A DNA stretch of 64,000 bases from the IMG/VR virus record IMGVR_UViG_3300047547_000041, positions 1 through 64,000 of that record; one strand, given 5' to 3'. The notes beneath the pieces are model-generated. The model did not search any database and was not told where the DNA came from. It saw nothing but the letters and a program-made list of their open reading frames with translations. A program made the position numbers and the translations under genes. The number at the start of each line of letters is the position of its first letter. The stretch's first letter is position 1. This document shows positions 26,609 through 59,485 of the stretch, piece after piece. The DNA is from a virus.

Positions 26609-26693
26609 TGGTACCCCCGGTCGGAATCGAACCGACACGCCTTTCGGCGGCGCTTTTAGAGAACGCTGTGTCTACCAATTTCACCACAGGGGC
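26609..26693 (-). tRNA. tRNA-Leu(CTA): amber-decoding tRNA
   Basis: An 85-nt class II tRNA on the minus strand. The acceptor is GCCCCTG/CGGGGGT with A73 and encoded CCA. The D-arm includes GGTAGACAC, typical of tRNA-Leu. The anticodon stem is GCGTT/AGCGC around the 7-base loop CTCTAAA, so positions 34-36 are CTA, reading UAG. The variable arm is CGCC-GAAA-GGCG. Body and length match the tRNA-Leu(CAA) at 27805-27889. A73 plus the long arm argue for leucylation, which needs experimental proof. Confidence 0.92.
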
Positions 26694-30881: not shown

Positions 30882-33800
30882 TCAATTGTTTTTCTTGTAC
30901 TGCCTACCGAAGACGTAGTTCGCGTATTCCTTGTAGCCTTGACCCTTCTTGATCATCAAATCTTCGCCATGAGTCATGATGTTGAACGATGTTGAGTCAT
31001 TCTCAATTCTGACAACAGGGCCGCGACTCGTTCTATACACTTCAACATCAGGGTTCTTAAACATGCCGTCTTCATATTCACGATAGTCAATAACACCATC
31101 ATTTGTTGGAATCATACCATCAGTGAAAATGAATTCGATCACATGTTTAGGAGTTTGATACTTCATGGTGGACTCGTCAATTTGAACCGATTCGGTAAGC
31201 GAGTCGATGCTTGTTTGCAACCATTCACGCAGTTTCTTAGTTGACGTTGTACGAACCTTGAAAACCTTCACAATCCGAATCATCATCTGTGGCGCGTTCA
31301 CCGCGTATTCGGGCGAAACCAAACGACTCGGATAACCATTTGGCAAACCAGTGTTACCACCATACCACCAAGTCTTACCAATTTCACTATTGGAAGTTGG
31401 CTCATAAACTTCAAGTTGGAACAAATAACCAATTTCGTCATATGTTCGCGCGTAACCATGATCCGAAATGTACTGTTGTGACTTGTCGGCAGTTTGGGTG
31501 TAGTAAATGCCGTTGACTTTCGCTGTACCTTCCTGTGCCTTAACTTTTACATCATTGACCTTATAGTTAGCAAGATAATAACCCTTTTTGTAGGCGTCAT
31601 CAAGGCTTGGGAAAGGATCATTTATAGCACTGATTTCAACCGCTGGCTTAGTGTCATCAAATCGTCCGAATCTGAGATTCTTACATTCCAACATTTTACC
31701 AGCAACCTTAATCGGCCCGCCACTCTTCAAAAGTTTGAAACCGTATCGAGTGATGAAAGTTGCAGCGCGAGAACCGCAACCATGGAAAACATCAGTTCGC
31801 AATTTGTACTGAACATTGTTGTCGGCCCAAATTTTCAACATTGCGGCAATCATCTTTTCATCACTGATTTTCGATTCAAAAATGTCTTCAACAATCATCG
31901 CAAAGTCACCATGCTTACCATTTGAACGATCAGCAAGATATTTTGTGGCTTCGATCCTATCCTTCAGCGATGGGTTTGCTGGAGTAATCATCTGAGGTTT
32001 AACGTAAGGCGTGAAATTATCAAAATCGATGGTATCGGGATCAACACCTTCCATGATCGAATCTGTGTCAACTTCATTAACCCACATCAACTTATGAATA
32101 AGACCGGCTTCCAGTGGTTCATTAGGAACAATCGGGCTACCTTCATTGTAAGACTTTGCAACACGTTCACCAGCGGCAAAGTAAATGACCTTCTTCTTAG
32201 CTTCTGGTGGAAGCGACTTCATCGCTTCAGTAAACCCAGGTTCATCATTTCGCGCAGCAAAGAATCTGTAAGCACTTTCGATAACTTTCTCTTTCTTCAG
32301 GTTTCGAGACTTGTCATATTGACGGAACGCCAATTCGATAGTTTTTTGATCACTGATAAGACTTGCAAATTCCGTGATATCAACAGCTTGTGAACCAGTC
32401 GGGGAGAAAATCTTTTGACCGACCGACAATGAGTTCATCGCGATATTGTAGAGTTCGGGGAAAAGTTGAGCCAACTTTGTCGCAACATCAGAGTCCATGA
32501 TAGACAGTGATGGAACGTTTTTGATGTTTGGTTCGGTACCGTAATTCAATTGGGCATCTTTCCAAAGATTCACAATTCGTTCGGCATCGGCCATACTACC
32601 GGCACTATTGAGCAAAATACCTGAGAATGACTGATTGATTTGATCAGCGTAGTTTTCAAGAATGAATTCTCTAAACTTCTTTGAAATTTTGCTGGCGACA
32701 CGGAACAAAGAACCGATGAAAATTTCATGAACGTTCGTTCTATAACCATCGAGAAGTTTGTCAAACAGTGCAGGATGAACATCAACGTAATGATCCAATG
32801 AGGCGTTCAACAAATCGAACGAATCGTGCACTTCGGCATGGCGAATCATGGAAGTACAGGTTTCAGTTTCCAAGATTTTATGCGCAACGTTTGTGTGAAT
32901 GTTGACAACCGAATCATGGAAGTACAGCGCGAAGTTGCCATAGTTTTTGTTGTAGAACGCCGAAATACACCAGTCAACGAATTTTTCGTTAGTTTTACGG
33001 TATTCAATGATTTGAGCGATTGCTTGGAAATGAGTATCAGAAAATTTGTCGGCAGGGTGAATATCAGCAATCAGTCTAACAAGATTGGCAAGGTTTGGCG
33101 GAATGCATGAGGTGTCATAGTACCTCGAATAACTATCAAACTGTTGCAAAAATGTTTTATACTTTGATGCGTCATCAAGATTGAACGAATTTGCATCCTT
33201 TTCATATTTTGCAAAAATCTCGTTCAGTGAACCACTTTTGTATTTTTCCAGTTTGAAAGAAATTGGAACAAGTTTGTAGTGACCCAAGTATTCCGTGCTA
33301 TCAAAATTCTTCAGTGCTTCCATGAGTGCATCATATTCAGCATCATCAGAAACCACATACTGATCATATGTGTCCATGGCAAGTGCCAAAATAACATCGG
33401 GGGTTTTCTCGAATGTAAATTTGTCATCGCCTATCACACCAACGGGGAAGAACTGCTTACAAGCTCTGAACGCGCACACGCTACCACCACTAAGATGGGG
33501 TTTGAATTCCAACTCGCCGCTGCGCATAGAATAGTAGCTGTAATTCGAAAAATCGTCCTTACCCGTGTTCGTCAGCGTAGAACCCGGGAAAATCTCAGAG
33601 AAGTTGACCAACATCCAACGTTGGGCGGAATTGATTGTACCAAAGTCAACACTTGATGGAGCGTTGAAAATATACTGAGCCAGCATCAACCAAAAGAATT
33701 CATTACCGGTTGCCTTTTTGTAGAAACCAGAATTCACCAAACCCTTCATGAAAGAATCAAACCGTGCGCCGGAATCGGATTCATCCACAACAAATCTGAC

Positions 33801-35219
33801 GGTGTTTTTCGGATATTGTTCAAAAGCATGGAATGCATAATCATATGCACTCTTCGAACTGTAATAGTATGACGAACGATAGAAATACTTGTTGACCCCC
33901 TTTGAGTTTCGTTCTGTTGAAATGTTGTACTCATATTTTGTTGCCTTGAAATATGCATCAAAAAACTTCTTGGCATTATCCTTATCGGCGTTTGCGATGG
34001 CATCATTGATTTTGTAAGAGTATTTGTACATGTCATCATTAGCGTTGATGTATTCCAAAAACTCTGTAACATCAACACGCTTGGCAACCTTATCAAATTC
34101 ACCATTGATCAAGTTGACAAACATGTTCTTCATTTGCAATGGCGTAAACGATGATGGCGCGGCCAAAGTCTTACTACCCTTTGGTGCACGACCGCGTTTT
34201 GCCGGTGCTGTAGCAACCGGTGCCGGTGAGGGAGTTGCAACCGGTGCCACAACCGGTGCCACAACAGGTGCAACAGGTGCCACAACCGGTGCAGCAACAG
34301 GCGCGGGAGTAGGTGCAGGCGTTGCAACGCGAGACACAAACGGTTGCGAGAATTGCGAAACGGGCGTAACCAATGGTTGAACAATTGGACGAACCACGGG
34401 CTGAACAACGGGTGCTGTAGGCACAACAGTGGCAACAGGTTGAACAATTGGACGGGGCGGGGTCACAACCGGTGCTGGAACTGGTGTGGGTGCCACAACA
34501 GGTGCCGGTGCTGGAACTGGTGTGGGTGCCACAACAGGTGCCGGTGCTGGCGTGGGCGCAGGGGTTGCAACCGGCGCAGGCGCGGGCGGAGTCACACCAG
34601 CTTTAGGTGTACCCTTGGGACCAAGTTCACCAACAATCTTAGGGTCATACGAATCGAAACCGTTTGAGCCAACATAGTGAGTTGCAAGCCGCTTAAATTC
34701 AGCAGCAACCTTTTGACGAGCCTTAGAGTAGCCTTGAATGTCTTGCCAAACAAGAACACCAACTTGTTGAATGCTGTATGTGCCGGTGCGCCACTTGGTG
34801 AACTGATTCTTCAGAATCGTCGATGGTTTGAAATCCGGATCACGCAACATTTCCTTTGCAAGACCGCGCAAAATAGTTTCATCAATTTGACTTGACGACA
34901 AGTTGCCTTGCTTGATCTTGGCGAACAGAAGCGTGAACTTGTCGGCCAGAACCCGACTCATAACACCACCTTCAACAGCCAGCTTCACCGACAGTGAAAT
35001 GTCATTGTTTGCGTCACCAATGTTGTCAAACCGAATCGACTTGTCATTGATGAAATAGTTCTTAACAGCGTGACCACCTTGAGTATCACCAATGGCATAC
35101 AGACCAAGAATGCCAAAAATGTTGATAATCAGTGCATCAGACTATTGTTGCTTGTCGGCAACCAATGCATCCTTTTCTTGGGCATTGGTGTAAAAGGTGT
35201 TTTCATACAAACGTTTCAT
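30882..35219 (-). CDS. Giant protein with Pro/Ala linker and ADP-ribosyltransferase-like domain, 1445 aa, one TAG
   Basis: The largest gene of the window. TAG at 35142-35144 (ADKQQ[TAG]SDALIINIF) joins the first 25 residues. Residues about 205-345 are a Pro/Ala/Val/Thr-rich linker with APAPV/TPAPTPAP repeats, ending in basic PAKRGRAPKGSK. A long alpha-helical region follows. Near residue 1145 is VFHGCGSRAATFITRYGF and near 1238 GIYYTQTADKSQQYISDHGY, the H...Y pattern of PARP-type ADP-ribosyltransferases. A virion-internal, injected host-modifying enzyme (as T4 Alt is) is an inference from size and domain. It follows an early-type region. Confidence 0.7.
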
Positions 35220-35273
35220 TATTTCTGAACCTCAATTTGTGGGTGATAAAGTATGGGTTACTTACCCAAATTA

Positions 35274-56338: not shown

Positions 56339-56715
56339 ACAAAGTCGAAAAGCCCCGTCACTATAAGGGCAACACAAAACTCAAGGGGGTGAACGTCAAA
56401 AGCGTTTTCACCCCCGAACAAATTGATACGGTTGCCAAGTGTATTGCCGACCCTGTTTATTTCATCGAGAACTTTGTCAAGATTGTTCACGTTGACCAAG
56501 GCATTATCCCATTCAAGATGTGGGATTTCCAGAAAAACATTGTTGAGTTGTACAACAACAACCGTCACGTTATTCTGAAGTAGCCTCGTCAATGTGGTAA
56601 GTGCGTTTCTGGTGATACTACAGTAAAGATTAGAAACAAGAAAACTGGCGAAATCTTGGAAATTACAGTTGAAGAATACTACAAGATGTTAAAGGCGAAA
56701 AATGACGCCAAATAA
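56335..56715 (+). CDS. 17: TerL N-extein fused to a 37-residue split-intein N-fragment, one TAG
   Basis: The first 89 residues are the start of the packaging ATPase, ending HVILK[TAG]PRQCGK (TAG 56581-56583), the first half of Walker A. Cys1 is at 56602 and begins the intein fragment CVSGDTTVKIRNKKTG..., which ends at TAA 56713-56715. Cys1 with GDT matches intein block A and looks like the AceL-TerL atypically split intein, also in a TerL and also with a very short N-part. The partner is the gene at 57734. Confidence 0.9.
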
Positions 56716-57703
56716 ACCATTGTCAGTTAAAACTTGCAGAGGGTGCGATATATCTTTTAATGGATATCGTACAACATCTTACTGTTCTGCCGAATGTTCA
56801 AAGTCTGTAAAGAATAAGAAAAAGGTTCAACAGTCTCATATTAAATTTCATTCGGAGAATTCTTCAGAATGGGTTGAATGTAAATTGTGTGACTTTAGGT
56901 CGGCTGATTTGGGCACACATTACAAAATTCTTCATAAACTAGAAAGCAATCACGGGTATGAAACAAAATCTCATAACATCCGAGAATCATTGACAGGAAA
57001 TAAGAATCCTGCCTTTAATCATGGCGGAAAATTTTCTCCGTGGTCGAAGAAATTTGTTAAATACTCTGATGATCGAGTTTGTTCAGAATCAATTAGTAAT
57101 ATGATTCTAAAAAGAAATAAAACATGGGAAGAAAACAAATCGCTACCATAGAGAGTTGATTACTATACCTCTAGGGGTATTTCCGAAGATGATGCAGTAA
57201 AGTTTATATCAGAAAGACAGAAAACTTTCAGTTTAGATATCTGTGTTGATAAATATGGTGTTATTGAAGGCACAAAACGTTTCTATGAGAGACAAGAAAA
57301 GTGGCAACAAACACTAATGTCAAAACCTGATGAAGAGTATCGTAGAATTTGCGAGTTGAGAGCGACAGCAAATAACCAATCTGTATCACTACAAGAAAAG
57401 GAATTGGTGATCGAACTACAAAAACTGTTCCCATCTTTGGAATCTCAGTTCATAATTCGTAAAGAACGTGGGTGGTACAATTTTGATATCAAAGTTGGTG
57501 ATAGGCTGATCGAATACAACGGTGATTATTGGCACGCAAATCCTTAGATTTATGACGGTTCCTGGGTTCATCCTAAAAGTGGTTTGACCGCAAAAGAATA
57601 GTGGAAGAGAGAGATTCTACAAAATATGAATTTGCAAAGAATCAAGGGTTTACGGTTTTAGTTGTGTGGGAATCAGATTTCAAGCAAAATAAAGAACTGC
57701 TAA
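56702..57703 (+). CDS. Free-standing Vsr-like homing endonuclease between intein halves, frameshifted
   Basis: ATG 56702 lies inside the TerL-N end, after AAAGGCGAAAA. An N-terminal zinc finger (CRGCDISF ... YCSAECSKS) is followed by repeats like GISEDDAVKFISERQ. A Vsr-type nuclease domain follows: RKERGWYNFDIKVGDRLIEY, NGDYWHANP. TAGs at 57149, 57545 and 57599 are in frame. After AKE[TAG]WKR a GA-repeat (57605-57614) shifts the frame: the conserved end DSTKYEFAKNQGFTVLVVWE lies in the -1 frame, ending at TGA 57747. Unshifted it ends at TAA 57703. Either a decayed gene or a frameshift signal. Confidence 0.78.
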
Positions 57704-57733
57704 TCTCAAAATGTGTTAAATTTTAGGAACAAG

Positions 57734-59485
57734 ATGAATCTGTCTGATACCGTTTCCAGAAAATTCGTAGATTCTATTGATATCGATGAATGGGAAATCC
57801 TAACTGATACTGGTTGGGAAGATATCACACATATTCACAAAACTGTTGAATATGAAGTTTATTCTTTGGTACTCGATACCGGCGAGACTTTAAAGTGTGC
57901 CGATGATCATATCGTTTTTGATGATGGTCTAAATGAAGTTTTTGTCAAAAACTAGAACCCCGGTGATAAAGTTGTGACAGAAAATAGTGTTTCTCTGGTC
58001 AAGACTGTGTGCAATCTTGGCTACACCGAAAATATGTTTGACGTGACGGTTGGGTCTAAAAATCATCGGTATTACACCAACGGAATTCTGAGTCACAACA
58101 CCCAAACAACAGCAGCATTCATTTTGCACTATGTGTTGTTCAACAAGAACAAAACTGTTGCCATTTTGGCTAACAAGGGTGCAACCGCTAGAGAAATCAT
58201 CTCTCGTATCAAACAATCGTTTGAAGAATTGCCGACATGGATGCAAATCGGGGTGAAAGAGTGGAACAAGGGTTCCATCGAATTTGAAAACGGTTCGTCA
58301 GTTATCGCCGCCGCAACATCAGGTTCCGCAATTCGTGGTAAGTCAATTTCTCTGTTGTACCTTGACGAATTCGCGTTCTTGCACCCCAATATGGCAATGG
58401 AATTCTTCGAGTCGGTTTATCCTACCATTTCTTCTGGTAAGGAAACCAAGATTCTGATCAGTTCTACGCCCAAGGGGTTCAACCATTTCTACAAAATGTA
58501 TAACGATGCAATTCAGGGCAAATCTGAATTCACCGGTTACGAAATCAAGTGGAATGACATTCCCGGTCGTGATGACGCTTGGAAAGAAAAGACCATTTCA
58601 ACGGTGGGTATGCAGTCTTGGTTGCAAGAATACTGTGGTGAGTTCCAAGGTAGTTCTTACACACTGGTTTCTGGTACGAAAATTGGGTCACTTGCATCGA
58701 AAGACCCAATTTTCAAAGACGGTAACTTCCGGGTTTACGAAAAGCCAATCGAAAAGAGAAACTATGTTATCACGATTGATACCAGTCGTGGTCAACATCA
58801 TGACTTCCATGCGTTTTCTGTCATTGACATTACTGCACTTCCGTACAAACAAGTTGCAACATTCAAGGACAATGCACTGTCACCCCTTGAGTATCCAACG
58901 CTGATTTATAACGTTGCGAAAATGTACAACAGTGCATATTGTCTGATCGAAATCAACGATAACGGGCAACAAGTTGCTGACGCATTGTTCTACGATTTTG
59001 AATATGAGAACATCTACTTCACGAAAAATGAAAAGGTCACTGAGGGACTTGGGTATCCGGGTGTTCGCACAACAAAGAAGGTGAAATCGATTGGTTGTTC
59101 GGTCATGAAAGACTTGATCGAAAAGGATATGTTGGAAATCAACGATCTTTCAACCATCAATGAACTTGCTGGGTTCTCTAAGAAGGGCGCAAGCTACGCC
59201 GCTGAAGATACATCGGTCAATGATGACCTGTGCACCACATTGTTCCTGTTTGGCTGGCTTACAAAGGAACCAATTTTCTCAGAACTAAATAACGTCAACA
59301 TCAGAAAGAAAATTTCTGAACAGTATGAGGAATATGTTACCGAGAATATGACGCCATTTGGTATCATCGATAACGGTATTGACGCATACTCTTTGAGTTC
59401 TGATACACCTGTGCCTAAATACGGGTCTGAGGAAATGGAATTCCTTCATTCTCTTTTGGGTATACAACCTACTTCTATGGACTAA
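57734..59485 (+). CDS. 17: Split-intein C-fragment fused to TerL C-extein, one TAG
   Basis: ATG 57734 follows TTTTAGGAACAAG (AGGA). The first 122 residues are the intein C-part, TAG at 57953-57955, ending YYTNGILSHN with block F/G His-Asn. The splice site is before Thr (codon 58100): TQTTAAFILHYVLF completes Walker A. The C-extein (461 aa) has LLYLDEFAFLHPN (Walker B) and the RNase-H-like nuclease with VITIDTSRGQHHDFHAFSV, LIEIN and a late Asp pair. Joined TerL is 550 aa, close to T4 gp17. Confidence 0.9.

Follow-up and report, generated by a model that had tools for sequence, protein, structure and literature searches.

Which kind of ADP-ribosyltransferase is encoded by a giant gene of a T4-like phage, and how would such an enzyme reach its targets? 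The gene lies in a stretch of 64,000 nucleotides, here called the window, which belongs to a virus record of 144,840 bases with T4-type head genes, including those for the gp21 protease and the gp23 major capsid protein. The nearest relatives of this gp23 are found in Synechococcus phage BUCT-ZZ01 (56%) and Methylophilales phage Melnitz (49%). An earlier sequence-only reading described the gene product as a 1445-residue protein with a PARP-like ADP-ribosyltransferase (ART) domain and compared it to Alt of T4. What this analysis established by computation is the domain family with its catalytic residues, the conservation of L/I-X-E at the termini, the signals for late promoters and the presence of a gp21 gene; a route of delivery is proposed by analogy with T4.

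Reading frame and probable recoding of TAG

The giant gene occupies positions 35219 to 30882 of the minus strand and ends with the stop codon TGA at 30882-30884. The elements that define its reading frame are the following:

30882..35219, minus strand: whole gene, 1445 codons plus TGA, predicted head-packaged PARP-type ADP-ribosyltransferase of the PHROG 18612 family
35230..35233, minus strand: GAGG, likely ribosome-binding site, read from the sequence
35142..35144, minus strand: in-frame TAG at codon 26, probably leucine according to homologue alignment and the suppressor tRNA
26609..26693, minus strand: suppressor tRNA with anticodon CUA, tRNA-Leu type, needed for codon 26, 81% identical to the phage's tRNA-Leu(CAA)

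The gene of 1445 codons is real, but the sequence-only reading passed over the TAG at codon 26. With translation table 11, the open reading frame (ORF) covers only 30882-34988 (1368 aa, GTG start), and continuity over 1445 residues requires this TAG to be a sense codon. A standard-code reading of the ORF was rejected in view of the TAG at codon 26 and the recoding of TAG by this phage. The corresponding column contains V, I or L in 45 of 45 aligned relatives. In the 144.8-kb record, in-frame TAG codons are present in 42 of the 99 ORFs of at least 150 codons, some of which are possibly spurious, and uvsW, nrdA and gp21 are among the interrupted genes.

TAG recoding in phages is usually described as a change to glutamine. 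This assignment was rejected here, since 20 TAG columns with homologues are best fitted by Leu, Met, Ile or Val, with Gln about 12-14 log units worse, and the suppressor tRNA is of the leucine type (56-65% identity to the other tRNAs of the phage, compared to the 81% given above). TAG therefore appears, from tRNA and alignment, to be reassigned to leucine in this phage; no case of leucine TAG recoding in phages was found in the literature searched. Because of the suppressor tRNA and the alignments of codon 26 and the other TAG columns, the 1445-residue chain is most likely real, with leucine as the most likely meaning of TAG.

A PARP-type domain in a known phage family

The predicted protein can be divided into the following parts, given by residue and by position in the window:

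35202..35219, minus strand: residues 1-6, MKRLYE, short capsid-targeting-like peptide ending in L-Y-E, with a predicted gp21 cut before N7
34614..35201, minus strand: residues 7-202, conserved N-terminal domain, from family comparison
34155..34613, minus strand: residues 203-355, Pro/Ala/Val linker, from composition
31980..34154, minus strand: residues 356-1080, divergent middle region, from Pfam search and family divergence
31245..31979, minus strand: residues 1081-1325 (approximate), PARP-type catalytic domain with H1146, Y1239 and E1304, from profile matches
31515..31688, minus strand: residues 1178-1235, insertion of 58 residues that separates GKML from NGIY at the edge of the PARP donor loop, from alignment with relatives
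31173..31199, minus strand: residues 1341-1349, LTE|SVQIDE|S, predicted C-terminal gp21 sites, from the motif; the C-terminal end of T4 Alt is ELTE|SV
30885..31190, minus strand: residues 1344-1445, C-terminal tail, predicted to be removed by gp21, from motif position

The linker, which had been put at 140 residues of Pro/Ala, is present and measures 153 residues (45 P, 33 V, 31 A and 15 T), and is thus also rich in valine. For the N-terminal domain, no relative among solved structures was found. The description of the sequence as mostly novel holds for the middle region, in which no domain is recognised by Pfam, but was too strong for the protein as a whole. The window protein matches the profile of PHROG 18612, a family listed as "unknown function" (E = 6.3e-44), and full-length relatives are encoded by cultured Aeromonas, Stenotrophomonas, Pseudomonas and Ochrobactrum phages. 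Relatives were found by tblastn in 33 records of phages of these same four genera, and an alignment search identified 48 loci in viral contigs and, in a collection of bacterial genomes, one locus that lies on a contig of 128 kb from an Anaerolineae assembly; a single-protein search of the viral contigs with the C-terminal 346 residues returned nothing.

Some of the family genes in Stenotrophomonas phages have already been annotated as ART. A study of 2005 identified the Aeh1 member as a homologue of PARP (PMC1266365), phage PARPs were mentioned in a jumbo-phage survey in 2021 (PMC7824862), and a paper of 2022 describes the Ps15 member as a protein with a PARP domain (PMC9025141). No proposal of an internal-head-protein role was found in the available portions of the literature on the family. 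Virion proteomics of a family member was not found in the literature searched, nor of the giant protein in the available portions of the pf16 and vB_OspM_OC papers. The PARP-type family is thus already known, and the new result would be its delivery by head packaging.

Family members such as Aeh1 ORF131c, Moby gp67, Ps15 ORF165, pf16 gp92, PX29 p130 and vB_OspM_OC p405 are of the same length class as the window protein. They share with it the N-terminal domain (except pf16 and the contig L048), the linker, the divergent middle, the PARP-type domain and the L/I-X-E termini, and usually also a C-terminal tail. The window member differs from these relatives in its longer Pro/Ala/Val linker, in the 58-residue insertion and in the need for TAG read-through. 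The N-terminal domain and the PARP domain occur together in all contigs long enough to show both, and use of the N-terminal domain as a general carrier for other enzymes was not seen. In pf16 (L003) and L048, a different N-terminal domain is present, yet L/I-X-E is found near the start, which indicates that this domain is exchangeable while the processing site is kept.

The assignment of the catalytic domain is based on a profile of 38 family C-termini, which matched the solved structures of PARP1 (E = 1.3e-7), PARP2 (2.7e-7) and PARP3 (8.9e-5). Pfam PF00644 was matched by 7 of the 8 family members tested; the window protein, a member with an insertion inside the PARP domain, gave no match to Pfam when searched on its own. 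The catalytic H, Y and E are conserved columns in the family. VFHGCGS and GIYYTQTADKSQQY, which the sequence-only reading had pointed out near the C terminus, are both present, and a later SPEY motif completes the H-Y-E triad, so that its proposal of a PARP-like domain is confirmed at the level of profiles and of all three catalytic residues. Since H, Y and E, together with a flanking K and Y, are kept across very divergent relatives while the remaining protein diverges, selection for catalysis is indicated. Judged by these profiles, the catalytic domain is PARP-type, nearest to PARP1 and PARP2 and not Alt-type, and the match is not due to chance.

The resemblance to PARP1/PARP2 (ARTD1/2), the best match among solved structures, includes the H-Y-E triad and its surrounding motifs. 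The phage domain differs in being fused to predicted head-targeting regions, with no other PARP-associated domain detected by Pfam. Membership of the Alt family was rejected (hhalign probability 0.03%, no match by tblastn). The comparison with T4 Alt made from the sequence alone stands for delivery, in view of the terminal gp21-type sites and the late promoter, and falls for the catalytic domain, which has no detectable relation to that of Alt. Both proteins are ARTs that carry gp21-type sites at each terminus (in Alt, LITE at the beginning and LTE and LME towards the end), an arrangement that suits an ART which is packaged and injected, but Alt has 682 residues compared to 1445 here.

At the position of the insertion, nearly all other members have an unbroken G-[RK]-M-L-G-[DN]-G-[ILV]-Y. 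The insertion in the donor loop could alter or abolish activity in the window member. A group I or II intron was rejected as its nature, as no RNA-family match was obtained. Two further loci show changes at the same loop. In L015 (1695-5897), an insertion of 61 residues is present; this gene also contains seven in-frame TGA codons, one of which is at a position where nearly all others have Trp, and the virus or its host therefore probably reads TGA as Trp. In L053 (5080-5640), two ORFs each encode part of the PARP domain, and the break falls exactly between GKML and GGVY: the upstream ORF ends with TGA and is followed by a hairpin and a new ATG ORF running into GGVYISD, so the active site would be formed from two polypeptides. 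The inserts of the window, L015 and L053 have no clear similarity to each other.

Predicted terminal sites and candidate late promoters

In T4, the protease gp21 cuts after L/I-X-E, and internal proteins carry N-terminal capsid-targeting sequences; Alt, of which 40 copies are packaged, is reported to be cut by gp21 at each end and is ejected (PMC9026906). The gp21 gene of the record matches PF03420 (E = 7.9e-43). In the family, L/I-X-E is present just before the conserved N-terminal domain in 35 of 35 aligned relatives. Many of their N-terminal peptides are close to the capsid-targeting form of T4, for example MKFKEFLELQE|NSLY, MTKNFKSFLGE|NSLY and MRNKTYKELHE|NLLY. The targeting peptide of the window protein is very short, and a few relatives have only four residues (MLKE, MIKE, MLLE). 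The internal proteins IPI-IPIII of T4 likewise have a short N-terminal capsid-targeting peptide that ends in I/L-X-E and is removed by gp21 (PMC9026906), but they are small proteins without an ART domain.

In 23 sequences of less than 60% identity, the position two before E at the N-terminal site is L (19) or I (4) and the residue in between varies (10 kinds), whereas elsewhere in the family proteins only 21% of the E residues have L or I two positions before. At the other end, at least one L/I-X-E is present within 45 residues after the PARP domain in 24 of 25 non-redundant tails, with 1.68 sites observed per tail compared to 0.49 expected; L/I-X-E is a short motif, these counts are not corrected for relatedness, and the alignment may be biased towards matching glutamates. 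Among the C-terminal sites of relatives is FLTE|A, which also occurs in T4 gp23, and SLTE|SV of the window protein resembles ELTE|SV of T4 Alt.

Upstream of the gene, a candidate promoter has been identified:

35259..35264, minus strand: TAAGTA, candidate core of a T4-type late promoter, at -45 relative to the start codon, from core enrichment upstream of the phage's genes

The T4 consensus TATAAATA is absent from the window. This absence was dropped as an argument against a late promoter once shorter cores proved to be enriched: upstream of genes of the window phage, TAAATA occurs 9 times (0.6 expected) and TAAGTA 9 times (0.8 expected), an enrichment of about 12-15 fold, and many of the genes concerned are structural. 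TAAGTA is found at -42 of the major capsid gene gp23, close to its position at the PARP gene. The window phage seems to have two late-promoter cores, TAAATA and TAAGTA. Among relatives, TAAATA is present between -70 and -20 in 22 of 31, compared to 0.64 expected, relatedness not being corrected for. The published late consensus of Aeh1 is CTAAATA (PMC1524935), and this sequence is found upstream of the family gene in Aeromonas phages, at -39 in Aeh1 itself. The N-terminal sites, the C-terminal sites and the late promoters thus form three partly independent lines that point to head packaging, none of them a direct proof.

Proposed role and its alternatives

The reading that is considered probable is that of a head-packaged, gp21-trimmed and co-injected PARP-type ADP-ribosyltransferase, which resembles Alt in its action and has a separate origin. 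The T4 system serves as the model for all proposed steps from targeting and cutting to packaging and injection, as well as for the presumed enzymatic activity and the kind of targets. The giant protein would be made late in infection as an internal head protein, and its first residues would serve as a capsid-targeting peptide, by which it is recruited to the prohead core. Cutting by gp21 would take place after L-Y-E (residue 6) and after L-T-E or I-D-E (residues 1343/1349), which would free a core of about 1340 residues with the N-terminal domain, linker, middle and PARP-type domain. This core would be packaged alongside the DNA and enter the host with it. In the host, the PARP-type domain would attach ADP-ribose from NAD+ to host proteins, and this marking would bias the cell towards phage growth from the onset of infection, as with T4 Alt. 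The broader claim, that a wide range of T4-like phages carry in their heads an active PARP1-type (H-Y-E) enzyme of separate origin from Alt, which is injected with the DNA and may build poly(ADP-ribose) on host proteins, is given an even chance.

Other points stand against packaging. The predicted mature core is far larger than Alt and would have to pass the tail tube, and the giant gene sits among early/middle-type genes (nrdA, a primase-like gene and uvsW). This neighbourhood, together with the same domain evidence (PF00644 and the PARP1 profile), would also suit an ART that is made inside the infected cell and never packaged, like ModA and ModB of T4, with the terminal L/I-X-E kept for folding or by chance. 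For such enzymes, however, one would expect neither L/I-X-E with a variable middle residue at each terminus, nor late promoters in the majority of relatives, nor the parallel with T4 Alt, and this explanation is regarded as unlikely. The strong head-protein signals, the large share of the length that is non-catalytic and the insertion adjoining the catalytic tyrosine could also belong to a protein that functions mainly in the head core or scaffold, with a degenerate PARP-like fold and no catalysis; the 2005 study reports that the N-region of the Aeh1 member is distantly similar to viral coat proteins (PMC1266365). The conservation of H, Y, E and the flanking K and Y argues against a loss of catalysis, as does the gene annotated as ADP-ribosylglycohydrolase-like directly upstream of the family gene in Aeh1 and PX29. 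A purely structural role is held to be quite improbable.

The same upstream gene, together with the genes for NAD+ biosynthesis (NMN adenylyltransferase/Nudix and NAMPT-like) a few genes downstream in Moby, would fit a counter-defence or NAD+-consuming effector, delivered or not, with the host immune system or the NAD+ pool as its main target instead of transcription or translation. No match to a macrodomain or ADP-ribosylglycohydrolase, however, was found in the record of the window; such a role is held to be very improbable. Returning to the head-packaged enzyme, no relatives of Alt, ModA or ModB were found by tblastn in the 144 kb of the record, in a class of enzymes that diverges fast, and the PARP-type enzyme may therefore fill their place.

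A family filed under "unknown function" or as a stray PARP would in this way become a testable idea. If it is correct, no fewer than two kinds of ADP-ribosyltransferase are injected by T4-like phages, Alt and the PARP type. Should the domain produce poly(ADP-ribose), this would be an uncommon example of such chemistry being delivered into bacteria by a virion. In L048, a region upstream of the PARP gene (694-1272) has weak similarity to T4 Alt (E = 3e-4), which suggests that both kinds of ART can be adjacent. Elsewhere in the window, at 56702-59485, the large terminase gene is apparently interrupted by an intein-like stretch that ends in HN before TQTTAAF and contains in-frame TAG codons.
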